Origin: Ferrithrix thermotolerans DSM 19514
Lineage (GTDB): Bacteria > Actinomycetota > Acidimicrobiia > Acidimicrobiales > Ilumatobacteraceae
Reading direction: 5' to 3'
NCBI GenBank assembly: GCA_945862025.1
Contig: CAMAWU010000009.1
Span: 1-34,598 of the forward strand
Length of the DNA stretch: 34,598 nt
Made by a program: the position numbers and the translations under genes. Every line of letters starts with the position of its first letter. Position 1 is the stretch's first letter. The notes under the pieces were generated by a model that saw only the letters and a program-made list of their open reading frames with translations, was not told the origin of the DNA and ran no database searches. Below are positions 1,879 through 24,291 of the stretch, piece by piece.

Positions 1879-1981
1879 ACAATTACGCAAGAATTTGACC
1901 GTACACTAAGGACACGCTTGTTAAATCAACTCGTTAAAAAGCTTGTTAGAAAACCAACTAATAAGTTAGTTAACAAATTTT

Positions 1982-2671: not shown

Positions 2672-2677
2672 CACTTG

Positions 2678-4626: not shown

Positions 4627-4642
4627 ACTTTTTGTTCTCCTT

Positions 4643-5392: not shown

Positions 5393-5393
5393 C

Positions 5394-7093: not shown

Positions 7094-7130
7094 AACTCTG
7101 CTGTAGCGTAGTACCAATGAGAACCAAAAT

Positions 7131-7168
7131 AACTACTAGACAGTCCAAATTAGACCAACTTAGTAGTT
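7131..7168. promoter_or_regulatory. Nested palindrome, candidate operator of the divergent catabolic operons
   Basis: In the region between the divergent cupin and Ldh genes, AACTACTA (7131-7138) and TAGTAGTT (7161-7168) form a perfect 8-bp inverted repeat. Inside it, 7143-7155 reads GTCCAAATTAGAC, a 13-bp pseudo-palindrome with a single mismatched pair. Its centre (7149) nearly coincides with that of the outer arms (7149.5). GntR/HutC regulators bind short palindromes of this size, and the locus encodes one, so this is the best operator candidate. The palindromes are seen; the binding is inferred. Confidence 0.5.
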
Positions 7169-7196
7169 TTTGTTAATGACGTATTTGCCATAAGTG

Positions 7197-8207: not shown

Positions 8208-8237
8208 AATCATGGCATTATTGAACCGCAAAATCTG

Positions 8238-9137: not shown

Positions 9138-9184
9138 AAAGCGAGAATTACACACTGCATTGGTTTGTTTTGGTATATGTTGGC

Positions 9185-9213
9185 TTGACAATGGGCTAAA
9201 TAGGTACTATCGT
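9185..9213 (+). promoter_or_regulatory. Sigma70-type promoter before the ABC importer operon
   Basis: TTGACA at 9185-9190 is followed, after exactly 17 bp, by TATCGT at 9208-9213. This is a near-consensus housekeeping promoter in the 133-bp gap before the binding-protein gene. It gives a leader of about 50 nt that includes the purine-rich AAAAGGGGA ribosome site shortly before ATG 9271. The importer can thus be made independently of the two upstream dehydrogenases. Confidence 0.6.
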
Positions 9214-9270
9214 GAAGTAAATAATATACGCTGATCTTTGGGGGCGTAATTAAAAAAGGGGATCAAAGCT

Positions 9271-10857
9271 ATGGATTTCAATACTGAAAATACTGTTTCA
9301 AGACGAGATCTGATTCGACGGGGTGGCATTATCGCCGCTTCAGTTGCGGTGGCTGGGGCACTAGATGTTAATCCTGCACTGGGGTCAGTATCAGCGAGTC
9401 CGCGTCGGGGTGGCAATCTTCGTATTGGTGTACCCGGAGGACCAGCCGGTTCGGACATTCTTGACCCCCATGCAGAGGGAGTTGCAGGTTTCGGTCAGGC
9501 CTTTAGACAAAATGTTTACTCAAAACTTACTGACATGATGCCCGATGGAACGTTTGAGAACCAACTAGCGGAATCTATGAGACCTAATCCAAAAGCAACG
9601 GTTTGGAAAATCAAACTTAAGCAAGGTATCAAATTTCATGATGGCTCTGAGCTGACTGCTGATGATGTTATTTACACGTTTAATCGAATTCTTAATCCCT
9701 CAAATGTCTTGAAGCAGGCCCGAGGAAATATCGACATGATAGATCCAAAGGGCATCGTGAAAGATGGCAAATATGATCTAACAGTTAATTTGCTTAAGCC
9801 TTGGTCGGACTTTCGTGCCGCAGTGGGTCAGCGATATATAAGCATCATCAAAGATGGTGCTAAGGGACCATGGACTGTTGCAAATGCAAATGGTACAGGA
9901 GCATTCAAGTTAGAGTCTTGGACGCCTGGAACTAGTTATAAGTACGTCGCGAATAAGAATTATTTTGAAACAGGAAAGCCTTATGTCGCCAGCGTTACCG
10001 TAATCGGCATTTCTGATTCGGTTGCTCGCGTGAACGCGTTACTTTCAAAGCAAGTTGATGCAATTAGCGATGCTCCGGTTAATCAAGTTCCGATGATACG
10101 AAGTGCAGGTGCAAAAATTATTGTAAACCCTGGTGGAAGTTGGACACCACTTGTAATGAACACAAATGTTGCGCCATATAACGATGTGCGTGTTCGCCAG
10201 GCTATGAAACTTTTAATTGATCGAGATAAGGCCGTAAAAATCGCTCTTGCAGGATATGGGACTGTCGGTAACGATCTTTTCGCTAAGTACGACGCGTTGT
10301 ACGCAGCGGATATTCCTCAACGAACATTTGATCCAAAGAAAGCACGCGAACTCTTGAAAGCTGCGGGTCATCTCAACACCAATTTTGTGTTGAGCACATC
10401 TGAAGCTGAATCAGACTTTGTACCGCTCGCTCTTGTATTTGAGCAAGGCGCAAAAGAAGCTGGAATCAAAATCACAATCAAAAAAGATCCCGCGGACACC
10501 TTTTGGGATAATACCTGGGGTGTTGCTCCATTTACTTTTAGTTCATGGGGTTATCGAGGATTTTTCACGCAATGGAATCAGTCATTTGTGTCCTATAACA
10601 AGGAAGAAACTCAATGGATAAATCCTAAAGCGGTCAAGGCATCAGCTTTAGTTGCCAAGGCAGCCGCAACAGGTAACTTTGAGAATAGTAAAGCACTTGC
10701 AGTCGCAGCCCAGCAGTTACTTTGGGATGATGGGGGTTACATAATTCCTTACTTCAAGAAAAAACTTGATGCTGCTCAGCCGAATGTCAAAGGGATTGAG
10801 CCACATGTGTTCCCAGCTCTTAGCTGGTATCGATTTTGGAACTTTTGGCTCGAATAA
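9271..10857 (+). CDS. ABC transporter substrate-binding protein, family 5, Tat-exported (528 aa)
   Basis: The solute receptor of a PepT-family (dipeptide/oligopeptide/nickel, also glycoside) importer. The N-terminus has a twin-arginine signal (SRRDLIRRGG, then the hydrophobic IIAASVAVAGAL) ending near residue 45. Family 5 landmarks follow: SKLTDMMPDGTFENQLAESM, WKIKLKQGIKFHDGSELTAD, DVIYTFNRIL, and NDVRVRQAMKLLIDRD near residue 310. No lipobox Cys is present, so the mature protein is presumably folded in the cytoplasm, exported by Tat, and held or released outside the membrane. It has its own promoter (9185-9213) and ribosome site. Although family 5 is usually labelled peptide-binding, the catabolic neighbours point to a sugar or sugar-acid ligand. 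Confidence 0.93.
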   Translation: MDFNTENTVSRRDLIRRGGIIAASVAVAGALDVNPALGSVSASPRRGGNLRIGVPGGPAGSDILDPHAEGVAGFGQAFRQNVYSKLTDMMPDGTFENQLAESMRPNPKATVWKIKLKQGIKFHDGSELTADDVIYTFNRILNPSNVLKQARGNIDMIDPKGIVKDGKYDLTVNLLKPWSDFRAAVGQRYISIIKDGAKGPWTVANANGTGAFKLESWTPGTSYKYVANKNYFETGKPYVASVTVIGISDSVARVNALLSKQVDAISDAPVNQVPMIRSAGAKIIVNPGGSWTPLVMNTNVAPYNDVRVRQAMKLLIDRDKAVKIALAGYGTVGNDLFAKYDALYAADIPQRTFDPKKARELLKAAGHLNTNFVLSTSEAESDFVPLALVFEQGAKEAGIKITIKKDPADTFWDNTWGVAPFTFSSWGYRGFFTQWNQSFVSYNKEETQWINPKAVKASALVAKAAATGNFENSKALAVAAQQLLWDDGGYIIPYFKKKLDAAQPNVKGIEPHVFPALSWYRFWNFWLE

Positions 10858-10887
10858 TTAATTAAGTTTCTTAAACAAGTGTTCTAA

Positions 10888-11841
10888 ATGGAAGTTAACG
10901 CAGTGCTTCGTGTCGTAGTAGTTCGAATCTTTAGCGGATTTGTAACGGTTTTATTCGCATCGCTGTTGATATTTATGACAGTTGAATTATTGCCAGGAGA
11001 TGCCGCAACAGTTTATTTAGGGCGTGACGCTAAATCTGATCCAGTTGCTCTCGAACAACTTAGAAACGAATATGGCTTAAATAGAAATTTATCGATTCGT
11101 TACTGCGATTGGGTAGTGGGAGCATTGCATTTTGATTTTGGGCGTTCATTTGTAAGTCAGCAAAGCGTCAGTTCTCTAATAAGCCCACGCCTAAATCGCA
11201 CAGCGTTGTTGCTTGGCATTTCTTTGGCATTCATGTTTCCATTATCCGTTCTAGTTGGCGCAGTATCAGCACTAAAACGGGGAACCCTCGTTGACTCTGC
11301 GATTCAGACAGGAAATTTAATTTCTGCGTCACTTCCAACATTTGTTTCTGGAATCGCTCTGATTTTTTTGTTCTCATTTATTTGGCCGATATTTCCTGCA
11401 GTATCTTTAGTTCTTACGCCAAAAAGTTTGGTGCTTCCAGTATTGGTTCTTATTCTTGGGTGGATGCCGTTTACTGTGAGAATGGTGAGATCAGGAATTG
11501 TGAATGTGATGGATTCAAATTATGTGGAGCTAGCTCGACTGAAAGGGTTGCCTAGCGCTCGAGTGTTTCGTTCTCATATTCTTCCAAATGCGATGGTGCC
11601 GGCGATTCAAGCTTTTGCGCTCACAGCTGCATCGATGCCTGCAGGAATTGTTGTAGTTGAATATCTCTTTGGTTTTCAAGGAATTGGGGTTTTTTTAATC
11701 GATGCAGTGAGGGCGCGAGATACTCCTACAGTTCAAGCCGTCACTCTTATTCTTGTGGCGCTTTATATTGTGGCCAATTTAATATCAGATTTGCTGGCGA
11801 TAATACTTACGCCACGCCTTCGAACTGAAGTTATGGGATAA
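10888..11841 (+). CDS. ABC transporter permease, DppB/OppB type (317 aa)
   Basis: An inner-membrane subunit with about six helices. The N-terminus shows the DppB pattern: a first helix (IFSGFVTVLFASLLIFMTVE) followed by LPGDAATVYLG and LRNEYGLNRNLSIRY. The EAA loop that contacts the ATPase is NYVELARLKGLPSARVF near residue 213, followed by RSHILPNAMVPAIQ. The ending VANLISDLLAIILTPRLR is characteristic of the family. It starts 30 bp after the binding-protein gene and 2 bp before the second permease, so it is part of the same operon. Confidence 0.93.
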   Translation: MEVNAVLRVVVVRIFSGFVTVLFASLLIFMTVELLPGDAATVYLGRDAKSDPVALEQLRNEYGLNRNLSIRYCDWVVGALHFDFGRSFVSQQSVSSLISPRLNRTALLLGISLAFMFPLSVLVGAVSALKRGTLVDSAIQTGNLISASLPTFVSGIALIFLFSFIWPIFPAVSLVLTPKSLVLPVLVLILGWMPFTVRMVRSGIVNVMDSNYVELARLKGLPSARVFRSHILPNAMVPAIQAFALTAASMPAGIVVVEYLFGFQGIGVFLIDAVRARDTPTVQAVTLILVALYIVANLISDLLAIILTPRLRTEVMG

Positions 11842-11843
11842 CG

Positions 11844-12704
11844 ATGCTGTTGAGCAGAGTGAAGCTTTGGCTAAGTCAGGAAAAATCTGTATCAGAAATT
11901 ATTGGTTTTGTACTTTTGATTACTGCTATTGCAATCGGTTTATTTGGTCGTTTCGTCGCCCCATATCCTCCTGATGAAATGTTTGGGTCGCCATTTGAAG
12001 CGTCGTCATCGGCTCATATTTTTGGTCTTGATTATGTTGGTCGAGATGTCCTGAGCAGATTTCTTTGTGGCGGCCAGACGTCGATAGCGATTGCACTCGT
12101 CGGTACTGTTGTTGGTGAAGCTATTGGTATTGCAACTGGTCTTATCTCGGCATTTCGAGGTGGTTGGTTTGATTCGATTCTCGGACGATTCACAGATTTG
12201 ATTCTTGCGTTTCCAGCCTTAATTATGTCGTTACTTCTCCTTGCAACTTTTGGCACGAGTATGTTTCTTGTAGTCGTAGCTATCGTCATCACAACAGCTC
12301 CAGGGGCGGCGCGAGTTACGCGATCAGCCGCTCAAGAACACGTAAAAATTCCGTATGTCGAAGCTGCTCGTGCTCGCGGTGAGAGTGATTCATTCATAAT
12401 GGCCATTGAGATTCTTCCGAATATTAAAAGCGTGCTGCTTGTTGATATCGGTTTTCGAGTCTCAAGTTCCCTAGTCCTTGTTTCTGCATTGAGTTTCGTA
12501 GGACTTGGATTACAACCGCCGGCAGCTGACTGGGGACTTATGATCGGTGAAAATCGGCTTGGTTTAACCATGCAACCATGGCCGGTTCTCGTACCAGCAT
12601 GCGCAATTATGTTTTTGACTATTGGTCTGAATTTAATTATTGATAGCAGACAACTATCAGCCTTGAAGAAAAGCGTCGCAACAGAATTAAGTTCTCGTGT
12701 CTGA
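11844..12704 (+). CDS. ABC transporter permease, DppC/OppC type (286 aa)
   Basis: The partner permease. The N-terminal helix (IIGFVLLITAIAIGLFGRFV) is followed by APYPPDEMFG and HIFGLDYVGRDVLSRFL, the typical 'H-x-x-G-T-D-x-x-G-R-D' segment of DppC proteins. The EAA loop is PYVEAARARGESDSFIMAIE, and the ending SFVGLGLQPPAADWGLMI is diagnostic. Its stop overlaps the start of the ATPase gene by 8 bp, so translation is probably coupled. Confidence 0.94.
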   Translation: MLLSRVKLWLSQEKSVSEIIGFVLLITAIAIGLFGRFVAPYPPDEMFGSPFEASSSAHIFGLDYVGRDVLSRFLCGGQTSIAIALVGTVVGEAIGIATGLISAFRGGWFDSILGRFTDLILAFPALIMSLLLLATFGTSMFLVVVAIVITTAPGAARVTRSAAQEHVKIPYVEAARARGESDSFIMAIEILPNIKSVLLVDIGFRVSSSLVLVSALSFVGLGLQPPAADWGLMIGENRLGLTMQPWPVLVPACAIMFLTIGLNLIIDSRQLSALKKSVATELSSRV

Positions 12705-14532
12705 CCAAGACTGTTTTTCAGTCGCCGATCTTTCGGTCACAATTAATAATTCAAATTGCTACATTGTGAACGATATCTCTCTTAAAATTTCCCCAAGAAA
12801 AGTTATTGGGATCGTTGGTGAATCAGGTTGTGGAAAAACAACGGTTGCTATGGCGCTCCTAGGATATTCGAGACCCGGAACAAAGATTGTTTCTGGGAAA
12901 ATCACATTACATGGGACGAACATACTTGAACTTGACGCTGTAGCCCTCCAAAAGATGCGGGGCAGTGTGATTAGTTTTGTCCCACAAAATCCCTCTGGAT
13001 CGCTGTCACCAGGTATGCCAGTTGGGCAACAATTACGTGAAATGGTTGAAGTTCATCAACCAGATTCAGAGACCGATGCTGTAGTTAAAGTCGCCTGGGA
13101 ATCGGCTCAGTTGCCTTACATTGAAAATATTCTTCGTAAGTTTCCACACCAATTGAGCGGTGGTCAGCAACAAAGAGTAACTATTGCTATGGCGCTGATA
13201 TGTAAACCAAGTGTGATTGTTATGGATGAACCAACGACTGGATTAGATGTTCTTACTCAGGCTCGATTACTCAATACGATCTCGATGCTTCGCGATTCAA
13301 TTGATGTTTCAATTGTTTATGTGAGTCATGATTTAGCCGTTGTCCGTCACATTGTTGATTCAGTAGCGGTGATGTACGGCGGAAATATAATTGAGACGGG
13401 AAGTGTTGACGAGATTTATAAAGATCCGACCCATCCCTATACGAGAAGACTGCTTGAAGCTGTTCCTCGTGTCAAAAACGAGCGCAGTTATTTGCGTGGA
13501 ATTGATGGAAATTCTGTAGGACCATTTATGCGTCCAAGTGGTTGCCAGTTTGCTCCTCGTTGTGATTATCGAGTGCCCGATTGCGAAATCAAAATTCCTC
13601 CAATTCAGAGTTTTGGGGAAAGCCTAAAGATGGTGCGATGTTTTAAGGCCGCCGAAGTCACCAAAATTCCTTTTGGGAGGCAACAAAATATTGCTAATGA
13701 CAGAAATGATAATTTAAGTGATCGGACAAATGTTCTTGAAGTAAATAATCTTTCTGCTGGCTATTATGGCCGCCGAAAGTCGCTAGTTGGCATACGACCA
13801 ATCGACATCGTTCTTCATGATATTTCGTTTGATATTAAGAGTGGTACGTGTCTTGCAGTTGTTGGAGAAAGTGGAAGTGGTAAGTCAACACTTGGACGCT
13901 GTGTCGCCGGTTTACATTTTTGGAATCAAGGCATTGTCAATCTCCAAAGCAAGCCTCTTAGCCAAGGTTCTAAGGATCGATCAATTGATCAACTACGTGG
14001 AGTCCAACTAATTTTTCAAGATGCTGATAGTTCGCTCAATCCGAGCATGACAGTCGAGAAAATTATCGGTCGACCTATTCGCCAGTTCTTTGATTTGGCG
14101 CCATCGGAAGTGTCTCTTCGTATCGCAGAATTGGTTAAGCGAGTTAAACTTCCGGTTGATGTAATTAATAGATATCCACGAGAATTAAGTGGTGGCGAAC
14201 GGCAACGAGTGGCTATCGCTAGAGCATTGGCAACGAAGCCCGATCTTTTAATTTGTGACGAAATTACTTCTGCTCTTGATGTCGCGGTGCAGGCAAGTAT
14301 TTTAGAGCTACTAAATGAATTGAGGCGAGATCAGTCTTTAGCCATTATGTTTATTTCGCATGATTTGGCTGTAGTGCATTCGGTGAGTGACGAGGTTCTT
14401 GTTTTGCAAAAAGGTTCTATTGTTGAGATCGGTCCTACAGCAAACCTTTTCTCTAATCCTAAAACGAATTATACAAAAGAGCTCATTAGCGCGGCACATG
14501 ATTTGTTGCCAACTGACTATCCAGTTTTTTGA
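12697..14532 (+). CDS. Double-ATPase ABC transporter protein, DppD-DppF fusion (611 aa)
   Basis: Two complete nucleotide-binding domains in one chain energise the importer. The first has Walker A GESGCGKTT (about residue 43), signature LSGGQQQR and Walker B VIVMDEPTTG. It ends in the oligopeptide-transporter C-terminal region (DPTHPYTRRLLEAVPRV) with a four-Cys pattern between GCQFAPRC and MVRC, as in OppD-type subunits that bind an Fe-S cluster. The second has GESGSGKST (about 389), LSGGERQR and LLICDEITSALD. Such fusions are common for PepT-family glycoside importers. The GTG start at 12697 lies inside the end of the permease gene. Confidence 0.95.
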   Translation: MSDQDCFSVADLSVTINNSNCYIVNDISLKISPRKVIGIVGESGCGKTTVAMALLGYSRPGTKIVSGKITLHGTNILELDAVALQKMRGSVISFVPQNPSGSLSPGMPVGQQLREMVEVHQPDSETDAVVKVAWESAQLPYIENILRKFPHQLSGGQQQRVTIAMALICKPSVIVMDEPTTGLDVLTQARLLNTISMLRDSIDVSIVYVSHDLAVVRHIVDSVAVMYGGNIIETGSVDEIYKDPTHPYTRRLLEAVPRVKNERSYLRGIDGNSVGPFMRPSGCQFAPRCDYRVPDCEIKIPPIQSFGESLKMVRCFKAAEVTKIPFGRQQNIANDRNDNLSDRTNVLEVNNLSAGYYGRRKSLVGIRPIDIVLHDISFDIKSGTCLAVVGESGSGKSTLGRCVAGLHFWNQGIVNLQSKPLSQGSKDRSIDQLRGVQLIFQDADSSLNPSMTVEKIIGRPIRQFFDLAPSEVSLRIAELVKRVKLPVDVINRYPRELSGGERQRVAIARALATKPDLLICDEITSALDVAVQASILELLNELRRDQSLAIMFISHDLAVVHSVSDEVLVLQKGSIVEIGPTANLFSNPKTNYTKELISAAHDLLPTDYPVF

Positions 14533-14610
14533 TATGAATAAAAAACTAATAGAGATAATCATCAGCTATGGAAAGTTAAGTCAAAGTTCAATTTATAGTG
14601 AGGTATGTAG

Positions 14611-15759
14611 ATGAAGATCACAACCATTGAAGCCTTTTTAGCACCTCCAGAATGGACATTTGTTCGCGTCGAAACTGATGAAGGCATCACAGGATGGGGA
14701 GAAGCTGGCATGAGTTTCAGAGCTCGTGCTGTTCGAGAAGCAATTCACGATATGCGTGAGATTTTAATCGGACAAGATCCAACGAAAATTGAATTTCATT
14801 GGCAAGTTATGCGTAAATCAAGTTTTTTCAGAGGTGGACCGGTGCTTTCTAGTGCGCTGGCCGCAATTGACATTGCACTTTGGGATATTCTCGGAAAGTC
14901 GCTCGGCGTTCCAGTTCATGTTTTATTGGGAGGACCTGTGCGAGAAACTGCTCGCGCTTACGCTTGGATAGGCGGTGACGATCTTTGTGCGATTTCTAGC
15001 GAAGAGTTAGTCGATGAAACGCTTGGTTTGGTTGATCAGGGTTTTACGGCGTTTAAATTGACTCCTCCCAAGACATCTGCAATTGACGTTCCTTCCTATG
15101 GCTCGAAATTAATGGGGCATCTTTCGGCACTTCGCAATAGCATTGGGCCAGATCGAGATATTGCGCTTGACGTTCATGGCAGATGGTCTAAGACAATGGC
15201 ACGACGTTTACTTCCAATTCTTGAGCCGCTTGATCTAATTTTCGTTGAAGAACCTATCCTCGCAGAGAACCTTCACATGGTTGGAGAGTTGACGTCCACG
15301 ACGAAACTCCCAATCGCTACTGGAGAGCGTCTCTTTTCACGTTGGGACTTTCTTGATGTGGTGAAGTCCGGAGTAGCAGTAATTCAACCAGATGTGGCAT
15401 TGGCCGGGGGTATTTCTGAGACTCGTCGAATAGCGGCGCAAGCGGAACCATATGATGTTGTCGTTGCGCCGCATTGCCCATTTGGCCCAATAACACTTGC
15501 CGCTTCTTTGCAAATTGATTTCGCAACTCCAAATTTTTTAATTCAGGAGCAGAGCATTACTTTCTTTGGTGACCAGTTTCTTCGTTATTTGAAAGATCCT
15601 TCAGTTTTTAATTTCAAAGATGGAAGTTTTGTACAAACAACGGCTCCCGGGTTAGGTATAGAAATTGATGAGTCAATGGTTTTGAGAATGGCTGCGATTG
15701 GCCATAATCACAAGCAACCCCTTTGGTGGCATAGTGATGGATCTTATGCAGAGTTTTGA
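14611..15759 (+). CDS. dgoD: Galactonate dehydratase-type enolase superfamily enzyme (382 aa)
   Basis: A mandelate racemase/enolase superfamily enzyme that probably dehydrates an aldonate to a 2-keto-3-deoxy acid. The N-terminal capping domain has MKITTIEAFL and DEGITGWGEAG. The barrel shows LDVHGRW (metal-binding Asp plus the Asp-x-His acid/base pair of DgoD), DLIFVEEPI (metal Glu), IATGERLFSR (metal Glu) and VAPHCPFGPITLAASLQIDF with the second catalytic His. It ends with the DgoD-like NFLIQEQS. Length and motifs match DgoD well, but close relatives act on other aldonates (gluconate, arabinonate, rhamnonate), so the symbol is provisional. GAGG seven bases before ATG 14611 is a reasonable ribosome site. 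It is the last gene of the importer operon. Confidence 0.8.
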   Translation: MKITTIEAFLAPPEWTFVRVETDEGITGWGEAGMSFRARAVREAIHDMREILIGQDPTKIEFHWQVMRKSSFFRGGPVLSSALAAIDIALWDILGKSLGVPVHVLLGGPVRETARAYAWIGGDDLCAISSEELVDETLGLVDQGFTAFKLTPPKTSAIDVPSYGSKLMGHLSALRNSIGPDRDIALDVHGRWSKTMARRLLPILEPLDLIFVEEPILAENLHMVGELTSTTKLPIATGERLFSRWDFLDVVKSGVAVIQPDVALAGGISETRRIAAQAEPYDVVVAPHCPFGPITLAASLQIDFATPNFLIQEQSITFFGDQFLRYLKDPSVFNFKDGSFVQTTAPGLGIEIDESMVLRMAAIGHNHKQPLWWHSDGSYAEF

Positions 15760-15788
15760 AAACCATAATCCAATAGGCTCGGACTTAA

Positions 15789-15818
15789 TGGTGGTTGTTA
15801 ATCGCCTTAACTACACCA
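15789..15818. terminator. Hairpin after the dehydratase gene, possible terminator
   Basis: TGGTG at 15789-15793 pairs with CACCA at 15814-15818, and TTAA at 15798-15801 pairs with TTAA at 15807-15810 around a short loop, giving an imperfect stem with one bulge. It lies 30 bp past the dehydratase stop and before the truncated repeat. There is no proper T-run after it, so it may end transcription only weakly or by another route. Confidence 0.3.
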
Positions 15819-15864
15819 ATGGTTTATTCAAATCCCAATGACACATCGGACTTTTTGTCGTGGT

Positions 15865-15981
15865 TCACAGAGCCGACACAGCTTTTTGATGCGCGGTTAA
15901 ACACACTTGCGGCCTTCACTTTGTTTAAGAGGAATGGCAAATCATGGAAACCATGGTGGACAAGCTCATGGAGACCATAAG
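15865..15981 (+). pseudogene. Transglycosylase-tail fragment (middle copy, copy 2)
   Basis: This 117-bp stretch is identical, base for base, to 17850-17966. It encodes the last 38 residues of the transglycosylase (TEPTQLFDARLNTLAA to SWKPWWTSSWRP) and the stop codon plus one base. It has no domain core, no catalytic Glu and no export signal; the frame upstream is unrelated, so no working protein is expected. It shares its last 43 bp (15939-15981) with the left copy at 2620-2662. It separates the catabolic module from the orphan gene and may be the scar of a second insertion. Confidence 0.85.
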
Positions 15982-16018
15982 AAAGTGAAATAATAAGTGA
16001 GTTAGGCATTACGAATGT

Positions 16019-17512
16019 CTAGAAGGAATGCTCTCCAGTACAGTGATTTGACACTCGGTGTCGTGTTATTGAAAAACCGGACAAAAAATGGTTAGTAGAT
16101 TCAAACATGTACCAAACAAATTCATCCTGTGGCTTTGTGATGGTTTCTGCAAAGAACTTTGTGGCGTTAATGGTTATCGCACCATGAGAAGAGACATCAA
16201 GCAATTTGGTAGCAAATATTCCATTATCTGAGTAAAACTTGATGTTAACCGTAGAGGATAAATCTTCATTGCTGTCATTCGTGATACTTAACCATGTATC
16301 ACAATTATCTAAATTAATTAATTGTCCCCAAAACGTACGTGTATGAGTTGCTGAGTGCAGAACATGGTTATTAAATAATGAAACATTTATCGAACTCTCA
16401 ATCGCATCTTTTTTATAAACGACTTGATGGTTGATTCGACATGGTGTATGTCCGGATTCTGGACGAGCATAAACAGTAAATGATGTTGCTTGCAGAAGGT
16501 CAATTCCTTTTGATTCAGCAATCGTCCTGACATCAATTTCAAGTGAGTCACCACGCGGAGACTTTATTATCAGTTCATTTGTTGCGCCGATAACAGAGCC
16601 ATCATTTCTATTAAATACTAGATGTATAACGATAAAAGACGGAGACATTATTGGATATATACGAACGAGAATATCTAAACCGTCAATGATCGGATATGTT
16701 CTCATCGAAGGGGTGCTGTCTGACCAATACTCTCCAGCAACATTAGAGTTGTCGTAGTAAGAATGATTTCCGACAAACGAACCGTTTGAAGCAATTTGGC
16801 CTACGAAAAGTCGACCGTAGAACAGTTGCTGTCTTGGTTGATCAATTAATAGTGTGCCACCGGTTTTTGGCCAAGATGGAACTAAGTCATTGATCAAAAA
16901 CATCTGCTGTGTAAGTCTTGGAATTTCGACGGAGAAAACATGATTAAGTTCGATCTCTGAATTAATAAATTTCAGTGCCACTTCGCCGCAAAGACCAAAC
17001 GGGCCTGAGGAAATTACAAAAAACTCTGAAAGATCTGGATTGTCTACCAGATCAATCGCCGCCTCCGAAACATTTATTGAGTTAATTTCCTCGTCTTCAA
17101 AGAGATCATTGAGCACTCGATTAAAAGAGTGAACAGAACTTATTGAGTCAACACACTTATGATTAACCATTACCGCTGGGAAGGGAATAACAAGATTTTT
17201 TGACGAGAAAAACTCAACTAAGAAGCATGCCGCACTTCGATCAAAATAATCTTGCGGGTAAATCGTATATACATGCGGCTCATTAATCTCAAGCAAACGT
17301 GAAGAAATTTTCATGCCTTCTTCACTTATGGCTGTAATCTTGCATGCAACTGATGAAATATCACGCTTGATTAAGAAGTGATTTAGAAAACTAATTGATA
17401 CTTCACTATTTGCCATCACCGGAACCAACAACGAAGATCGATGGTTTGAATTAACAAGATTGCTGGAGTATTGCTCCTGTCTCTTTTTTTCAATTTCAAC
17501 AAATTTTTTCAT
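16019..17512 (-). CDS. Unrecognised 497-aa protein, orphan gene of the island
   Basis: I do not recognise this protein. It has no signal peptide, no transmembrane helix and no obvious nucleotide or metal motif. The N-terminus is charged (MKKFVEIEKKRQEQ), followed by SSLLVPVMANSEVSISFLNH. The rest alternates short hydrophobic and polar stretches, as in a beta-rich protein, with a Trp/Tyr/Asn-rich middle (GNHSYYDNSNVAGEYW) and a C-terminal part that repeats beta-sandwich-like strands (WLSITNDSNEDLSSTVNIKF, FVWYMFESTNHFLSGFSITR). The ATG at 17510-17512 lacks a ribosome site. The gene points against its neighbours and stands alone between two identical 117-bp repeats, which suggests independent acquisition. 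A coding role is supported by the long open frame and conventional composition. Confidence 0.75.
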   Translation of the reverse strand: MKKFVEIEKKRQEQYSSNLVNSNHRSSLLVPVMANSEVSISFLNHFLIKRDISSVACKITAISEEGMKISSRLLEINEPHVYTIYPQDYFDRSAACFLVEFFSSKNLVIPFPAVMVNHKCVDSISSVHSFNRVLNDLFEDEEINSINVSEAAIDLVDNPDLSEFFVISSGPFGLCGEVALKFINSEIELNHVFSVEIPRLTQQMFLINDLVPSWPKTGGTLLIDQPRQQLFYGRLFVGQIASNGSFVGNHSYYDNSNVAGEYWSDSTPSMRTYPIIDGLDILVRIYPIMSPSFIVIHLVFNRNDGSVIGATNELIIKSPRGDSLEIDVRTIAESKGIDLLQATSFTVYARPESGHTPCRINHQVVYKKDAIESSINVSLFNNHVLHSATHTRTFWGQLINLDNCDTWLSITNDSNEDLSSTVNIKFYSDNGIFATKLLDVSSHGAITINATKFFAETITKPQDEFVWYMFESTNHFLSGFSITRHRVSNHCTGEHSF

Positions 17513-17629
17513 ATCTACAGTCTAATTAAGACCGCCAATTAGAATTCGGCTCGCTATTTGACTAATTTGTAGACGAGGTTCTTTGCACAATTTCTTCTTA
17601 GGCACAGGTTTAATGCGATTACAAGTTTT

Positions 17630-17965
17630 CAGCCTGCCATCGCCGTGCCAAAAACAACTATTAAGCGCAATGAAGTTATCGCGATAATTCGTGAGATCTG
17701 GCCGGCCGAGTATGAAGAAAATGCGTTATTTGTTGCTCAACGCGAAAGCAACATGCTTCCAAATGTCATCGGTGGCACAAATAATTGTTGCATCGGATTA
17801 TTTCAGATTTACTATTCGGTGCATAAAGCATGGCTTGTCGATATTGGGATCACAGAGCCGACACAGCTTTTTGATGCGCGGTTAAACACACTTGCGGCCT
17901 TCACTTTGTTTAAGAGGAATGGCAAATCATGGAAACCATGGTGGACAAGCTCATGGAGACCATAA
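17630..17965 (+). pseudogene. Transglycosylase domain fragment lacking signal and LysM (right copy, copy 3)
   Basis: From CAG 17630 the frame reads QPAIAVPKTTIKRNEV, matching QPPIVVPKTTTKRNEV of the full gene, then continues with the whole SLT-like domain including AQRESNMLP and GLFQIYYSVHKAW, to the same C-terminus and stop. The signal peptide and LysM module are missing: the frame upstream is short, unrelated and closed by a stop at 17570-17572. A GTG at 17645 could start a 106-aa protein, but without export it could not reach the cell wall. The changes from the full copy are conservative (8 in 106), so the domain was under selection until recently. It lies 25 bp upstream of tRNA-Arg. Confidence 0.8.
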
Positions 17966-17975
17966 GGCAGTAGGC
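17924..17975 (+). repeat. Right 52-bp perfect core of the direct repeat
   Basis: Identical to 2620-2671. It covers the last codons (Lys-Ser-Trp-Lys-Pro-Trp-Trp-Thr-Ser-Ser-Trp-Arg-Pro), the stop and 10 bp of non-coding DNA. The identity past the stop codon, where protein selection does not act, and the abrupt divergence after base 2671/17975, mark a recombination boundary like an attL/attR pair. Confidence 0.75.
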
Positions 17976-17990: not shown

Positions 17991-18066
17991 GCGCTCGTAG
18001 CTTAATGGATAGAGCATCTGATTACGGATCAGAAGGTTGGCGGTTCAAGTCCGTCCGAGCGCGCCA
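17991..18066 (+). tRNA. tRNA-Arg(ACG), CCA encoded
   Basis: The acceptor stem GCGCTCG (17991-17997) pairs with CGAGCGC (18056-18062); discriminator G18063 and encoded CCA 18064-18066 follow. The anticodon stem TCTGA/TCAGA holds the loop TTACGGA with anticodon ACG at 18024-18026 (inosine-modified in bacteria, reading CGN). It has a normal short variable loop and T-arm. It marks the right flank of the island and is convergent with the membrane-protein gene that ends at 18070. Confidence 0.97.
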
Positions 18067-18069: not shown

Positions 18070-19260
18070 TCACTTCTTGATAACTTGCGAGCATTCGACG
18101 ATCGCAGAACTATTTGGGCTAACAAATAACTCAATTTCTGATTCGAGTTGAGTTGCACAGATCTCTCTGCCTCGGTCTACTTCCGATGTCCAAGTAGGGC
18201 CAGTAGTCAAGAACCAGCCGGCCTCAAACCATTTGGCGACCGGCACAACAACAAATATCAGTGAAATCGCCAACGCATATATTTTGAGTTTATTGAAAAC
18301 GATTATGAAATCATGCAGTAGCAGTAGTCCACAAATCCATGCAAGAGTCATCGGCGCGACAAAATAACGGTCGGCGATTCCGCCCAAAATATAACTTGAA
18401 GCCGATAATGCAATTGTTGAAGCACAGAGCATGAATCGCAATTCGTTGTATTTTGAGTTTCGAAATGGGCTCAAACTATTGACAATAATTATTATTAAGC
18501 AAAAAAGAATTGGAAAAAATATCCCTGAATACCAAAATAAGCCCATGCCTGGCCAAAGTGACATGACGCGTGACCCACTGCGACCTCTTGCAGCAGCGCT
18601 AACTCCAACTTTGAGAACTTGAATAATTAAAGTCGCAAAAACAACTGTTAATAAAGTCGTTACTTTGTGGCGCAAGTCACGATCTTGTGACCGGAAAAAC
18701 CAAATCAACGGCAAAGCGGTTACAAAAAGAATTGGTTGACTTAGCCCTGCTAACAGCGCTACAACTGTAATTAACTTGGAATATTTAATAATTGCCCGAC
18801 TTGAACAAAAAGCGATTGCTACGGCAGCAGTTAACGGAAATTTAATCATTCCGATATTGCCGAGCGAACTTTCCATTGCGTGTGGGATCACGATCAGCAC
18901 AAGCCCAGCTCCAGAAGCTAAAACCCGATTATTAGTTTCTTGATAGATCATTGCGAAGATAAATAATGCCAGTGCGACCCAAGTTAAGTTGACGACAGAT
19001 GATGACGCTATGGCGTGATATCGAATTGGAAATAGCGCGACTATTTCGGCAGTCGCGCGACCAGATATTTCGAAATACTCAGGAAACGGTTTTAAAAGAA
19101 CCGATAAATTTCCATTAACAGCATCGGGCACATATGTGTAACCAGTGTCTGCTCCGATGCGATTTATTGCTTTCCAATCTCTCGCAAAAATTATCAGTAG
19201 ATATAAAAAACTTGATACAAAAACCCAAACCCGGTTGCTGATTGATTTTTCGATGGGCAC
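18070..19260 (-). CDS. Polytopic membrane protein, envelope cluster (396 aa)
   Basis: An integral membrane protein with roughly eight to ten hydrophobic helices, for example VFVSSFLYLLIIFA near the N-terminus, LTWVALALFIFAMIY, GIFFPILFCLIIIIVNSL and IYALAISLIFVVVPVA. The large first outer loop (DTGYTYVPDAVNG to AEIVALFPIRY) lacks a clear acidic GT-C motif, so a glycosyltransferase role is possible but not shown. The C-terminal 60 residues are soluble and contain two Cys (REICATQLES, SAIVECSQ), perhaps a disulfide outside the membrane. The start is GTG 19258-19260. It is the last gene of a leftward cluster with a YdcF protein, a GT2 and a GT-C-like protein. The function is unknown. Confidence 0.75.
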   Translation of the reverse strand: MPIEKSISNRVWVFVSSFLYLLIIFARDWKAINRIGADTGYTYVPDAVNGNLSVLLKPFPEYFEISGRATAEIVALFPIRYHAIASSSVVNLTWVALALFIFAMIYQETNNRVLASGAGLVLIVIPHAMESSLGNIGMIKFPLTAAVAIAFCSSRAIIKYSKLITVVALLAGLSQPILFVTALPLIWFFRSQDRDLRHKVTTLLTVVFATLIIQVLKVGVSAAARGRSGSRVMSLWPGMGLFWYSGIFFPILFCLIIIIVNSLSPFRNSKYNELRFMLCASTIALSASSYILGGIADRYFVAPMTLAWICGLLLLHDFIIVFNKLKIYALAISLIFVVVPVAKWFEAGWFLTTGPTWTSEVDRGREICATQLESEIELFVSPNSSAIVECSQVIKK

Positions 19261-19283
19261 TACAAAAGATCTTAATCAGTTGC

Positions 19284-20024
19284 TTAACTAGTCAATTGAT
19301 ACGAAATGATCCCGACAAATTCTTTAATTCGATATGTATTGTCGTCAAGACTAGAAGTAAAGGGAACAAAACTGAATAGTGAAATACCAAAACTATTTTC
19401 CTCGGTTCCAAATGAGTAGACATTGGAAAAGTAGCGGTGAAATTCGCGCAGTGCTCGGCGCAGGTGAAAGTTTGAGGTGACAATTGCGATTGGTGTGTCT
19501 GATGTAATTCCTGGTAGGGCTTTAGCCTGAACTGGGTGCTCCCGTGTGTTTGATGAAATTGACTCAATAATGATTCGAGACTGTGTCAAGCCAAGTGAAA
19601 TCGCATGTTCGGCAGCAAGTTCACCGTGTCGGGTCGGTAGTCGATCATCCTGCGTGCCTGGTTCTTGACCTGAAAAAACGACTTTTGCCGATGGATATTT
19701 TCGCCATAACACTGACGCAGCATTAATTCGTCGAGTACTTTCTGTACCTAGAAAATCTTCTGGTGGGGTGGCACCAACTTCAAAACCGCCACCTAACACG
19801 AAGATATATTTTGGTGACCAATCGGACTTTGTCTCGTGCTCAGTGTCAAGCAGTGTGTCAAAAATTGAAGTGGCAAAGCCAGTTGAGAGAAATGTCAAAA
19901 CAACCAGCGAAGAGATGCAAAATTGTTTAAGTAACTTATTGATTTGAATCGAATCGGTCTTAAAAAAAGCCGTAAAAGCGATTGCCAATAACAAAGCCCA
20001 CAGCGGATCGACTAACGCTCGCAT
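19284..20024 (-). CDS. YdcF-like (DUF218) membrane-anchored protein (246 aa)
   Basis: N-terminal hydrophobic segments (LWALLLAIAFTAFF and FCISSLVVLTFLSTGFA) anchor the protein. The DUF218/YdcF domain follows: YIFVLGGGFEVGATPPED, a STRRINAASVLWRKYPSAKV segment, VFSGQEPG, ESISSNTREHPVQAKAL and IAIVTSNFHLRRALREFHRY. This order (GGG, sugar-phosphate-like pocket, SxNTxE, TSxxHxxRA) is diagnostic of the family, which is linked to cell-envelope and lipid-carrier metabolism although few members are characterised. It starts 8 bp after the GT2 gene, so it is likely to be translated in the same operon. Confidence 0.85.
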   Translation of the reverse strand: MRALVDPLWALLLAIAFTAFFKTDSIQINKLLKQFCISSLVVLTFLSTGFATSIFDTLLDTEHETKSDWSPKYIFVLGGGFEVGATPPEDFLGTESTRRINAASVLWRKYPSAKVVFSGQEPGTQDDRLPTRHGELAAEHAISLGLTQSRIIIESISSNTREHPVQAKALPGITSDTPIAIVTSNFHLRRALREFHRYFSNVYSFGTEENSFGISLFSFVPFTSSLDDNTYRIKEFVGIISYQLTS

Positions 20025-20032
20025 GCGAAAAT

Positions 20033-20764
20033 TTAGTTCTGCTTCTTGTTGCGAGTGAACCTGAATTTAAGGGTGTGGACAAGAATCTGCAGACCATATT
20101 TGATGCCGTTAACTCGTGAAATTTCATCACCATAAAAAGTTGGAATCTCTATTTCAGTGATTCGTTGTTTTGCACCGATCATTTGCAAAATAATTTGCGA
20201 ATCAAAGTCAAAATAGTCCGAGTTTTTCAGAAACTCAACTTTGTGCAAAGCAGCAACGCTGTATGCGCGATATCCGCTGTGCCATTCGGTTAGAGAAACA
20301 CTGGCAAGACGATTCTGTAAAAATGTCAGAATTTTGTTGCCAACAAATTTGTAAAGTGGCATTCCTCCCTTGCGGGCGCCACCGCTGGTCATCATCCGAG
20401 AGCCAAAAACAACATCGGCATTTCCAGAAATTATTGGTTCGACCATCTGCGGCAAATATTCTGGGGCGTATTGTCCATCGCCATGCAGCAATACGACAAG
20501 ATCTAGCGAATTTTCAATCGCCCACTGATATCCAGTTTTTTGATTTCCGCCGTAGCCGAGGTTTTTTGGATGTCTGATAATCGTTAGTGGCAGTTCGGAA
20601 CTATTTTTATAGGAGATGCCTACTTGGTGAGTGTCGTCGGTGCTGGCGTCATCACAAACAAGAATCGCTTCAATTTGTTCAACAAAGTTGCTCGGTATGC
20701 GGTCTAGTACTTGGGCAAGGGTATTTTCGGCGTTATAGGCAACTACTAATATTCCGATTTTCAT
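20033..20764 (-). CDS. GT2 family glycosyltransferase, dolichyl-phosphate-sugar synthase type (243 aa)
   Basis: A GT-A fold enzyme that probably loads a sugar onto polyprenyl phosphate. It starts with IGILVVAYNAENTLAQVLDR, then the nucleotide-binding CDDASTDDTHQV, NLGYGGNQKTGYQWAIE, LLHGDGQYAPEYLPQMVEPI (the DxD-type metal site reads DGQ), FGSRMMTSGGARKGGMPLYK and TEWHSGYRAYS. This last set matches bacterial DPM1-like enzymes. There are no C-terminal membrane helices. ATG 20762-20764 is preferred to an in-frame TTG at 20773. In context it may supply lipid-linked sugars to the neighbouring GT-C-like proteins. Confidence 0.9.
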   Translation of the reverse strand: MKIGILVVAYNAENTLAQVLDRIPSNFVEQIEAILVCDDASTDDTHQVGISYKNSSELPLTIIRHPKNLGYGGNQKTGYQWAIENSLDLVVLLHGDGQYAPEYLPQMVEPIISGNADVVFGSRMMTSGGARKGGMPLYKFVGNKILTFLQNRLASVSLTEWHSGYRAYSVAALHKVEFLKNSDYFDFDSQIILQMIGAKQRITEIEIPTFYGDEISRVNGIKYGLQILVHTLKFRFTRNKKQN

Positions 20765-20779
20765 ATTGAGCAAACTTTA

Positions 20780-22327
20780 CTACGGCCAAAAATAATTTAT
20801 GTCTTCACTACATAAACCTAAATCAAATACTGTTCCCCAGGTATCTGCAAACATAACTACGGCACCTACTGGCATCCCTTCGATATTTGGTGTGCCGTCG
20901 TGATACAAACTGTTGTACCACACGAAATATCTGTGACTGCAGCGTCTATTTTGCGCAGCATCTAGTTGATATTGGTTGAACACGGGTGGCCGTTTTGAAA
21001 CCGAGAATAGTTGTTGTTGTTGATTGCTCATCAGCAAACTTCTTGGCGCTAGTGATTTAACGAATTTATGGATTGGTAAATCCTGAAAACCTCTACCCGA
21101 CCAGTGCCGCCCGTCTGCACCAAACGCGAGCGCATCTTTAGTCGCTGAAGTTAGATGAAAACTCAGAAGTAAAACAAAACACGCACCAAGGATTTTTTTA
21201 ATATTTCTTTGCTTTGAAATTGTCTTCTCAATCGCAATTGCGATAAGAACGATGATCGGCACATAGATCGGGATCATCATTCGGTTGTCGAGTGGACCTA
21301 ACTCCCAGTGAACAAATCGATATGCAGAAAAACAAATATATGAAATCACAACGGCAGCACACGCAAGTAAGACATCAGAGTTATTTTCATTATGCTGAGC
21401 CACTTTGAGTTTTTTGACACCGATGATCAGAGTGAGTGTCACGATAATTATCACAACTAATGATCCTGCAAACTTGGCGGTTGCTGGATAATCAAGCCAC
21501 GACATGTAGATGCCACCCTCAAATGGTTTGGCGAGAATCCATGTGCCCAAAGTTCCTGTGAGAGTTTTAAGTGGATCAAGTAATGACCCGCCACCGGGCG
21601 CACGAGCACCAGTCAAAGTGCCGTCGATTCTCTTGTTGCGCGCAAGCCATAGCCAACATGGAAGAAACGAGACAGCAAAACCGGCTGTGTTAATTGCTGC
21701 TGATTTGAGTAACCCAATCTGTTTACGATTTATCAAAATTGAGGCTGCAGTTAACGCAACTGCAAAAACAGGACCCACATAACGAATAAAAAACAATCCT
21801 GTCATCAGCAGTGGCAATAGTGCCGCTTTCGAATAAGACATTTTCTGAACTGCGACAAATATTGCGATAACTAGAACAGCTAGAAATGGTGGTTCTGACC
21901 AGGCCATTGAGTACTGCCACAACAATGCCGGGCTGAACGCGACAAAGGCTGTACCGATAATTATTGTTTTGCGATCAGACATGGCACGCATTAACAGCGC
22001 ATAAGTCGTTGCAACGACTATCAGTGAGCAGATTGCGTTCAATAACAACAGAAATAAATTGGCACTGATGCCGAGCGAAATTCCAACTGCGATTAATGCC
22101 GAAAGTCCTGGCGGTCTAACAGTCATTGGTAATCCAGTTACATCTAGTAACCCGCGACCATTTGCAATATTGATTCCGACCGCAACATAATCGGTTGAAT
22201 CCCAACTCCAGCCAACACCTGAACGATTCGAGATGATTGACAAAATTGCACCCGTTATAGATAGCCCGAATGCCCAAAGGTTTGCTTTGATCCAGTCACG
22301 AATGCCGAATATGACCGAAGCAAACAC
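20780..22327 (-). CDS. GT-C-like membrane glycosyltransferase (515 aa)
   Basis: A large membrane protein with about ten helices and, after the first, an extracytoplasmic loop GWSWDSTDYVAVGINIANGR with LPMTVRPPGLSALI: an acidic residue before an 'RPPG' segment is the pattern of the PMT/ArnT-like GT-C family, which uses lipid-linked sugars. The C-terminal soluble part (about 90 residues, with DGRHWSGRGFQDLPI) is likely to be outside the membrane. The start is GTG 22325-22327, divergent from the nucleotide-sugar dehydrogenase with 59 bp between. The acceptor and sugar are unknown. Confidence 0.82.
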   Translation of the reverse strand: MFASVIFGIRDWIKANLWAFGLSITGAILSIISNRSGVGWSWDSTDYVAVGINIANGRGLLDVTGLPMTVRPPGLSALIAVGISLGISANLFLLLLNAICSLIVVATTYALLMRAMSDRKTIIIGTAFVAFSPALLWQYSMAWSEPPFLAVLVIAIFVAVQKMSYSKAALLPLLMTGLFFIRYVGPVFAVALTAASILINRKQIGLLKSAAINTAGFAVSFLPCWLWLARNKRIDGTLTGARAPGGGSLLDPLKTLTGTLGTWILAKPFEGGIYMSWLDYPATAKFAGSLVVIIIVTLTLIIGVKKLKVAQHNENNSDVLLACAAVVISYICFSAYRFVHWELGPLDNRMMIPIYVPIIVLIAIAIEKTISKQRNIKKILGACFVLLLSFHLTSATKDALAFGADGRHWSGRGFQDLPIHKFVKSLAPRSLLMSNQQQQLFSVSKRPPVFNQYQLDAAQNRRCSHRYFVWYNSLYHDGTPNIEGMPVGAVVMFADTWGTVFDLGLCSEDINYFWP

Positions 22328-22335
22328 GATTGAAC

Positions 22336-22366
22336 TCTAGGCGTTTAATAGTGTTGTGAACCTAGA
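22336..22366. promoter_or_regulatory. Inverted repeat between divergent envelope genes
   Basis: TCTAGG at 22336-22341 and CCTAGA at 22361-22366 form an inverted repeat in the 59-bp gap between the GT-C-like gene and the nucleotide-sugar dehydrogenase. The flanks extend the match (8 of 9 positions per arm), and ATTGAAC occurs in the same orientation beside both arms. It could be a regulator site shared by the two operons. No regulator is encoded nearby. Confidence 0.3.
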
Positions 22367-22386
22367 ATTGAACGAATGGTTATCAA

Positions 22387-23580
22387 ATGAAATTTTCACA
22401 AGATGTTGTTGTTGTCGGTGGCTGCGGTCATGTTGGGCTTCCACTTGCGATTATCTTGGCGTCAAAGTCGTTAAAGGTTGTTGCATTTGACACGAATTCT
22501 CAAGTTGTTGAGAAAGTTAACAGTGGCCAGATGCCGTTTGATGAACCTGGTGCGCCTGAAGTTCTGAAACGAGTTTTAGCCGCGAAGTCGTTTTTTGCAA
22601 CAAGCGATAAGCAAAGCGTTGCCAGCGCCGAACATGTCGTCGTCGTAATCGGCACACCCGTTGATGAACATTTGAATCCAGACCCTGAGGCAGTGCCAAA
22701 TGCGGTGACTTGGTTGCTCGATGTGCTGCAAGACGGTCAGCATCTTGTGTTGCGTAGCACGGTTTACCCGGGAGTGACAAAACTTGTCGAAAAAGTCATC
22801 GCCAAAAGTGGCAAGAAAATTGATGTCAGTTTTTGTCCTGAGCGCATCGCCGAAGGCAAAGCAGTCGAAGAATTGATTGCATTACCGCAAATAATTTCGG
22901 CAAGAACGCCAGCGGCAGTTGAACGCGCTAAGAAACTATTTAGTTGTCTCACTCAAAACATGATTGTGGTTAGCCCTGAAGAAGCAGAACTCGCAAAGTT
23001 GTTTACAAATACTTGGCGTTACATCAAATTTGCGGCTGCGAATCAGTTATACACAATCGCCAATGACTTTGGTGTCGACTTTGAGCGAGTCCGTCATGCA
23101 ATCACCCATGATTACCCTCGAGCAGCAGATATGCCGGGCGCAGGATTCGCCGCTGGTCCGTGTCTATTTAAAGACACGATGCAACTCGCAGCGTTTAACA
23201 ACAATAATTTTACACTCGGCCACTCAAGCATGATGATCAATGAAGGACTACCGCTGTATCTTGTTTCGCGAATTGAAAAAAACTATGACCTGGCAAAAAT
23301 GACCGTCGGAATATTAGGCATGGCGTTCAAGGGTGAGAGCGACGACATTCGCTCAAGTTTGTCTTACAAGTTGAAGCGAATTTTACGGTTTAAAGCAGAA
23401 TCGGTTCTGTGCGCCGATTCGCTGGTGCACGATGACGCGTCGCTAGTTTCGGAAGATGAACTTCTCAAGCAAGTTGATTTAGTTGTGATTGGCGCGCCTC
23501 ATCGTCGGTATGCATCTTTAAAGATTTCTCAACCAGTTATTGACATCTGGAACATACGCAAGCAAGGCGTTTTGATCTGA
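22387..23580 (+). CDS. Nucleotide-sugar (UDP-Glc/UDP-ManNAc type) dehydrogenase (397 aa)
   Basis: Oxidises the C6 alcohol of an NDP-hexose to the uronic acid with NAD. The NAD motif is VVVGGCGHVGLPLAIIL near residue 8, followed by VVVIGTPVDEHLNPDPEAV and VLRSTVYPGVT. The central helix region has PEEAELAKLFTNTWRYIKFA. The catalytic Cys is in MPGAGFAAGPCLFKDTMQL near residue 260. The C-terminal UDP-binding domain follows (LGMAFKGESDDIRSS). The pattern is closer to WecC-type UDP-N-acetylmannosamine dehydrogenases than to Ugd, but the substrate is not certain. The next gene starts inside its stop codon. Confidence 0.92.
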   Translation: MKFSQDVVVVGGCGHVGLPLAIILASKSLKVVAFDTNSQVVEKVNSGQMPFDEPGAPEVLKRVLAAKSFFATSDKQSVASAEHVVVVIGTPVDEHLNPDPEAVPNAVTWLLDVLQDGQHLVLRSTVYPGVTKLVEKVIAKSGKKIDVSFCPERIAEGKAVEELIALPQIISARTPAAVERAKKLFSCLTQNMIVVSPEEAELAKLFTNTWRYIKFAAANQLYTIANDFGVDFERVRHAITHDYPRAADMPGAGFAAGPCLFKDTMQLAAFNNNNFTLGHSSMMINEGLPLYLVSRIEKNYDLAKMTVGILGMAFKGESDDIRSSLSYKLKRILRFKAESVLCADSLVHDDASLVSEDELLKQVDLVVIGAPHRRYASLKISQPVIDIWNIRKQGVLI

Positions 23581-24290
23581 CACCACGAGTATCTATTGTC
23601 ATTCCTGTCTATAACGAGGGCGAAAATGTTGAGCCTGTACTGCGACGATTGTTTGAAGCCGTTGATATTGAGGCTGAAGTTTTAGTTGTTTATGACGAGG
23701 CAGAAGACACAACTATCCCAGCATTAATAAAATTGCAGCACGAATTCAAAAATCTGCGACCTGTGCAAAATACTTATGGTCGTGGTCCGGCTAATGCGAT
23801 TAGATACGGCATCGATCAAGCCAAAGCGAAAGTGGCAGTAGTGACAATGGCTGATGGGTGCGATGATGCATCACAAATTGCAATCTTGACTCGATTAGTC
23901 GAGCGCGGAGTCGTTGTTGCGTGTGCAAGTCGATACGCAAAAACCGGTCAACAAGTCGGTGGCCCGTTCTGGAAGGGTGTGATGTCAAAAGTTGCTGGAT
24001 TAAGTCTCTACTACGGTGCAAGAGTTGGCACCCGCGACGCGACCAACTCGTTCAAGGCGTATTCAACAGACTTTGTGCGTCGCGTTGGTATTGAAAGCGA
24101 CAAAGGTTTTGAGATTGGCATTGAACTTGTTGCTAAGGCGCGGCGATTTCGCCAGCCAATTGCTGAGATTCCCACGATTTGGCTAGACCGATCTTTTGGT
24201 GTGTCAAATTTCAAGATCGCAACTTGGCTACCGCGTTATTTGAAATGGTATTGTTATGCGTTCGGTACAAAGAAAGTGTTGTCTAGATAA
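23577..24290 (+). CDS. GT2 family glycosyltransferase with CTG start (237 aa)
   Basis: A GT-A glycosyltransferase. The frame continues upstream of the first usual start codon (TTG 23649) and encodes TPRVSIVIPVYNEGENVEPV, the classic N-terminal strand of GT2 enzymes, so the gene must begin earlier. The only start-like codon there is CTG 23577, which overlaps the previous stop (CTGA) and has AAGG at 23564-23567 at suitable distance. It follows with VLVVYDEAEDTTIPAL (in place of the usual DDGS), NTYGRGPANAIRYGI, TMADGCDD and CASRYAKTGQQVGGPFWKGV. It has no transmembrane helix. A start at 23649 would cut off the nucleotide-binding strand. Confidence 0.85.
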   Translation: MTPRVSIVIPVYNEGENVEPVLRRLFEAVDIEAEVLVVYDEAEDTTIPALIKLQHEFKNLRPVQNTYGRGPANAIRYGIDQAKAKVAVVTMADGCDDASQIAILTRLVERGVVVACASRYAKTGQQVGGPFWKGVMSKVAGLSLYYGARVGTRDATNSFKAYSTDFVRRVGIESDKGFEIGIELVAKARRFRQPIAEIPTIWLDRSFGVSNFKIATWLPRYLKWYCYAFGTKKVLSR

Positions 24291-24291
24291 A

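Follow-up and report, generated by a model that had tools for sequence, protein, structure and literature searches.

Three copies of the 3' end of a transglycosylase gene border a metabolic module and an orphan gene at a tRNA-flanked hotspot of an actinobacterial draft genome

The window, that is, the whole stretch of 34,598 bp that was analysed, is contig C9 (CAMAWU010000009.1) of a draft genome of 1.73 Mb in 128 contigs, which is about 84% complete. The majority of 14 related records in another collection were uncultured actinobacteria, and two of the records carried the freshwater label acIV, which we take to denote a freshwater group. Between 1791 and 18066 of the window, tRNA genes flank an intact transglycosylase gene (LT), a metabolic module, an orphan gene and two further copies of the 3' end of LT. 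The features are as follows (G024 is a related genome).

1791–1878, + strand: tRNA-Ser(TGA), left flank of the hotspot (ARAGORN)
1982–2072, + strand: tRNA-Ser(GCT), directly 5' of LT (ARAGORN)
2092–2661, + strand: copy L, the intact LysM-SLT transglycosylase gene LT (Pfam LysM and SLT; start at 2092 read from the sequence)
2300–17965, boundaries approximate, no strand assigned: block of apparently foreign ancestry against host-like flanks (identity profile and tests against G024; moderately supported for the first 214 bp of R)
2678–15759, no strand assigned: catabolic/transport module of 12 genes (Pfam)
15865–15981, + strand: middle tail M, 3' end of LT, identical to 17850–17966
16019–17512, − strand: 497-aa orphan gene, with no match of its protein in Pfam, NCBIfam or PHROGs; under purifying selection
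17629–17965, + strand: right tail R, truncated 3' part of LT with the SLT domain, LysM part missing (left edge by eye)
17850–17966, + strand: 117-bp block within R identical to M
17991–18066, + strand: tRNA-Arg(ACG), right flank of the hotspot, 25 bp from the LT stop of R, the same spacing as in relatives (ARAGORN)

The catabolic/transport module contains genes for Gfo/Idh, SDR, GntR, ROK, cupin, Ldh_2, 2-hydroxyacid dehydrogenase and SBP_bac_5 proteins, two permeases, a double ABC ATPase and an MR_MLE enolase, which by Pfam amounts to an ABC uptake system, dehydrogenases, an enolase-superfamily enzyme, a GntR regulator and an ROK protein. Among the other 28 genus members, nothing matched the module enolase at E 1e-60, and in 100 genomes it had a single other match, which was 40% identical and came from another family. 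The solute-binding protein was matched in 12 of 100 genomes at E 1e-60, all but its own at just 32–35% identity, so no donor was indicated.

Sequence similar to that of the relatives G024 and G008 extends for kilobases on both sides of the island in the contig. A glycosyltransferase/sugar-nucleotide cluster (18070–25317) adjoins tRNA-Arg, with two family-2 glycosyltransferases, a UDP-glucose/GDP-mannose dehydrogenase and an NAD-dependent epimerase among its genes. Homologues of parts of this cluster were found after tRNA-Arg in G024, G008, G004, G025, G006, G015 and G001, and none was found next to tRNA-Arg in the short stretches of G026, G011 and G012. The latter two have a C-rich stretch, CCGGGTGTCT.CCGAGCCACCCC, in common 3' of tRNA-Arg (L052 and L054). 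Fragments of tRNA-Arg and tRNA-Ser(TGA) had no exact match of at least 12 bp elsewhere in the window, also none for tRNA-Arg between M and the orphan gene, and the single 12-bp match of tRNA-Ser(GCT) lay outside the island. Repeats of tRNA fragments as marks of cassettes were rejected, as none of at least 12 bp occurs within the island.

M and the 117-bp block of R are exactly identical, as a preliminary description of this DNA had reported. Their starts are 1,985 bp apart, and the 1,868 bp in between hold one reverse-strand ORF of 497 aa, in agreement with the 1.87 kb and the single reverse-facing gene given there. M consists of the last 37 codons of LT plus two bases, the stop codon and one base more. 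The right copy is longer than the 117 bp described, since LT homology reaches back to about 17629 and runs for about 337 bp to the stop at 17965, with a Pfam match to SLT. M and R thus do not share a left edge, M beginning 117 bp and R about 337 bp before the end of LT. The differences from the left copy noted earlier were also recovered, L and R differing at 15 of 117 positions in this stretch (the register of this comparison was shifted by one base). Past the stop codon, 10 bases are common to L and R, and M shares just one. A core of 43 bp, ending one base after the stop, is identical in L, M and R; it is a conserved coding stretch, so its sharing is expected anyway. Copies of the 3' end of the target gene are present at every module border, and no further copy of the LT tail was found in the draft genome at a meaningful E-value (next match 24 bp, E 0.006). 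We judge that an exact 117-bp repeat within 34.6 kb is not due to chance. The pair formed by M and R could still recombine, which would delete 1,985 bp.

Comparisons with relatives show that this site is empty in all those whose contig reaches tRNA-Arg. LT was compared in 13 relatives, namely 12 of the 28 other genus members (one genome per species) and G036 of the same family, whose LT was 58% identical; nine weaker LT matches were found in more distant genomes. The contigs of two of the 13 end before tRNA-Arg; in the 11 that reach it, the spacing between the LT stop and tRNA-Arg is always 25 bp. The 15.3 kb that separate the ends of L and R are therefore additional in this genome. None of the other relatives examined carried cargo between LT and tRNA-Arg, none of the 12 LT-bearing genus relatives had an extra LT tail, and no intermediates (LT with the orphan gene and R, or LT with the module and one tail) were observed among the 28 other genus genomes, 12 of them with LT. 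The same location is thus empty in close relatives, as in additive islands. Different cargo in a relative, also a mark of such islands, was found in one clear example, G026, to the right of tRNA-Arg, where G026 carries the orphan gene and the window, G024, G008, G004, G025 and G006 have another gene in common.

The homologue in G026 was the sole strong foreign match of the orphan protein in 199 genomes, its own included, with 79% identity over 259 residues up to the end of the contig. It is located on the reverse strand just past tRNA-Arg, LT and tRNA-Arg being contiguous with no catabolic module between them; it therefore lies on the opposite side of tRNA-Arg from the orphan gene of the window, and it has no tail repeat. 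This showed that the two cargoes are separable. Between the orphan gene and its G026 homologue, dN was 0.116 and dS 0.751 (259 codons), and pheA of the same genomes had a dS of about 2.0, near saturation. Thus selection has kept the gene, and it has passed between the lineages since their split.

The neighbourhood of pheA is often interrupted in the relatives. Among 18 pheA-bearing relatives, the contig ended at most 2,000 bp downstream of pheA in 13, versus upstream in 5 (p 0.018; thresholds chosen afterwards), and all seven contigs of relatives with pheA and without LT stopped within 285 bp of the pheA match. The breaks just 3' of pheA fall at the tRNA-Ser genes (window 1779–2072). These breaks hint at strain-level variation at the locus; tRNA sequences that are identical between species could be an alternative cause.

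To better understand the ancestry of the island, the tails were compared with the flanks. Against G024, 70 of 1,482 positions differed in the left flank (tRNAs left out) and 24 of 591 in the right flank, compared with 52 of 334 in the tail of L (p 1e-10), 20 of 214 in the first part of R (Fisher p 0.007–0.008) and 17 of 116 in the block of R identical to M (p < 1e-4). The ancestry of L switches inside LT near 2300: the 5' part is G024-like and host-like, and the last 335 bp or so belong to another lineage, nearest to the alleles of G025 and G006. In AU tests, whose groups were picked after a first tree had been seen, a clade of L and R was rejected (p 0.045 for the whole tail, 0.011 for the first part and 0.0036 for the second part), as was a clade of L and G024 (0.0009, 0.002 and 0.02, respectively). 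For a clade of R and G024, the first part gave a weak rejection (p 0.035), and neither the second part (0.12) nor the whole tail (0.098) gave any. The first part of R was placed beside G024 and G008 (88/85), and its second, M-identical part in a set with L, G004, G025 and G006 (94/94). The two parts group differently, so R is a mosaic. In the pheA tree, the window grouped with G024 (90/93), and a clade of G024 and G008 was rejected (0.015).

Synonymous divergence pointed in the same direction. The dS was 0.70 between L and R and 0.55 between R and G024, compared with 0.16 between the window and G024 at pheA, which is a different gene and only a rough yardstick. The changes between R and G024 were mostly silent (dN 0.036), and pseudogene decay was not favoured as the cause of their divergence. 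By the trees of the tails and the dS values, L and R are alleles that stem from different lineages, and 2300–17965 is mostly or all foreign to the chromosome, the foreign origin of the first 214 bp of R being moderately supported. The tails trace back to two source lineages or more.

The reading that we prefer, and that we hold at about even confidence, is a composite additive island at a tRNA-flanked hotspot, formed by LT-anchored recombination that left displaced tails behind and probably inherited as one allele. The 117-bp pair would be the 3' end of LT kept twice beside cargo that was inserted between LT and tRNA-Arg. At each addition, imported DNA carrying an LT 3' end of its own would recombine with the resident LT; a full LT would be restored on the left, and the previous tail would be displaced to the right of the newly added cargo. 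Repeated additions, in which the orphan gene and the catabolic module came in separately, would then give one full gene and two tails of unequal length. The composite allele would probably have entered the chromosome by ordinary homologous exchange, the final crossovers lying inside LT at about 2300 and close to the LT stop or tRNA-Arg. What we infer in this scheme is that recombination was one-sided, how many additions there were and in which order, and that a single final import took place. The missing intermediates, the position of the G026 homologue beyond tRNA-Arg with no tail, and the finding of no tRNA-Arg remnant between M and the orphan gene count against it. A homologous crossover in the constant part of the anchor gene, as in known cases of displacement, is seen in the switch of L near 2300, where the grouping of L with G024 was rejected. 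At the other end, where the displacement model expects illegitimate joins at varying positions, the starts of M and R within LT do not coincide, which may reflect such joins. Homology-anchored joins are favoured over an integrase because the tail starts are unequal, no recombinase was found in the island and only two of XerC/D size elsewhere in the draft genome, and the ancestry of L changes within LT; judged from these sequence features, they seem to fit better than a fixed att site.

Site-specific accretion, which we consider unlikely, would make the island a series of decayed CIME-like elements inserted at an att core in the LT 3' end, with L as attL, M as an internal att site and R as attR, and with the integrase lost or acting in trans. 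Such an anatomy is seen in the Streptomyces PAISt (PMC4057263) and in CIME-ICE/IME tandems (PMC5704250). The 43-bp core fits as well, but as conserved coding sequence it would be shared anyway, and the different left edges of M and R speak against a fixed site. Moreover, Pfam found no recombinase among the 13 island genes (12 catabolic genes plus the orphan). Elsewhere in the draft genome, PF00589 matched just two XerC/D-sized tyrosine recombinases, on other contigs, and PF00239 and PF07508 detected no serine recombinase (control matches in 10 and 3 of 14 genomes). Viral contigs yielded no LT tail, whether searched with an LT-tail pattern or by alignment of LT. An integrase, present in the element or the genome of CIME/ICE systems, was thus not found here, although a CIME by definition has none of its own and the gene could be missing from so incomplete and fragmented a draft.

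It may also be that there is no second insertion unit, and that one composite block arrived, within which local duplication or gene conversion later produced M from R or R from M. Copying of a foreign block predicts just what was observed, namely that M equals the block of R and that this block departs from G024, and most of 2300–17965 is foreign-looking against its flanks. However, local copying leaves the position of the orphan gene exactly between the tails unexplained, and this gene exists separately at the tRNA-Arg of G026, so that we regard this possibility as quite unlikely. An assembly artefact, in which strain variants were joined through the shared 117-bp stretch, a length near the usual word lengths of assemblers, is very improbable: the assembly is a draft in 128 contigs and the frequent contig breaks of the relatives mark the locus as hard to assemble, but the contig runs on for kilobases, host-like on both sides, and the block contains whole genes in one linear path.

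Returning to the preferred reading of displaced tails, the order of the insertions needs to be considered. The preliminary description had concluded from the identity of M and R that their duplication was younger than the left/right pair. This did not hold, as the tests rejected L and R as sisters and the two do not form a duplicated pair. Given the dS comparison with pheA and the empty site of G024, the divergence of L and R predates any insertion and provides no clock; it represents how far apart the donor alleles were. The use of tail divergence to date the insertions was accordingly rejected, both by the AU tests on L and R and by the dS comparison. The identity of M and R can reflect recent common descent of the block or gene conversion between repeats 2 kb apart. 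In the displaced-tail model, the insert nearest the intact gene would be the youngest, i.e. the catabolic module, which reverses the order proposed earlier; alternatively, the orphan gene would be younger if it had entered by a single crossover through M. Of the stepwise growth proposed in that description, with a transglycosylase tail left by each step, the separable loads and the LT tails remain and the age order does not. Its second insertion unit is likewise borne out in part: G026 is a relative that has the orphan gene but no catabolic module beside it, a combination that it had suggested to look for, but there the gene lies beyond tRNA-Arg and has no tail.

Several known systems resemble this locus. 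In PAISt of Streptomyces turgidiscabies, attL is at the 3' end of bacA, and attR and an internal att site lie within two further copies of the bacA 3' end (PMC4057263). Accretion involving elements without an integrase has been described for CIME-ICE/IME tandems (PMC5704250). As here, PAISt and CIME/ICE accretion show an intact gene at one end, internal and terminal copies of its 3' end and two modules, with direct repeats that permit modular loss. PAISt, however, has an integrase and an 8-bp att core, whereas here no integrase was found, the tails are unequal, and L and R are from different lineages. In the sequential displacement model for T6SS immunity arrays, for which homology-facilitated illegitimate recombination has been proposed, an anchor on the upstream side combines with an illegitimate join at the other end, so that old 3' ends stay behind, and entire composite arrays are exchanged afterwards (PMC5361080). 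Our proposed process resembles this model. The effector-immunity arrays of Vibrio and orphan Rhs ends share with this locus a constant upstream anchor, displaced 3' ends downstream and array exchange by homologous recombination; the displaced gene in those arrays is a variable effector, whereas here a conserved gene for a cell-wall enzyme serves as the anchor, and the cargo has a metabolic or an unknown role. In fGI1 of the marine Ca. Actinomarinales, tRNAs in a sugar-decoration island are targeted by cassettes that leave tRNA repeats (PMC7771536), and the repeats of fGI-2 of Methylophilaceae include the last 20 bp of tRNA-Lys (PMC10872708). Those islands similarly have tRNAs beside a sugar-coat type cluster, cassettes added at the edge and direct repeats at cassette ends, but their repeats are tRNA fragments, whereas here the 3' end of a neighbouring protein gene is repeated and no tRNA fragment is.

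Signatures of 3' tails, hotspots at tRNAs and islands of the additive type have all been described before; within the limits of our literature search, what is new lies in the details, namely this gene, this host and tails tagged by lineage. The island is a concrete case of an uncultured freshwater actinobacterium, small in genome, acquiring genes for transport and catabolism at a hotspot between tRNAs where no integrase is visible. LT tails used as lineage tags would show which kind of relative was behind successive imports, and the order of additions is testable in wild populations; the divergence between tail copies should not be taken as a clock. More generally, the conserved LT between tRNA-Ser and tRNA-Arg may be a standing homology anchor at which cargo is stacked and swapped in these freshwater actinobacteria without an integrase and each addition leaves a lineage-marked tail. 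We offer this as a tentative idea, possible rather than probable; if it is true, the source of each addition could be read from its tail.

Further searches were made for relatives of the orphan protein. A profile search brought up no additional homologue, neither among 149 relatives nor among 396 genomes of the phylum (its own included in each), and a weak match in G080 (E 9.5e-4) was dropped, as it was not recovered among the 149 genomes. Pattern scans gave one stretch in viral contigs and 18 in genome contigs, none of which is a relative. A phage or plasmid origin was set aside, the protein having no match in phage or plasmid records, and YoeB was disregarded as a relative, this sole PDB sequence match reaching E 0.63. 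The predicted structure was poor (mean pLDDT 47.5; best fold match E 1.5e-3, TM 0.17), and from this model the fold can be called beta-rich and nothing finer. A distant relative of 509 aa, 21% identical, is encoded at another chromosomal place in G026 (contig C24, locus L057:9064-10593), where its gene adjoins a gene for a TRAM-domain RNA-methyltransferase-like protein, with the L19 ribosomal protein gene some kilobases away. By eye, the orphan protein and this 509-aa protein have a similar HSF/HGF motif at their C-terminal ends.
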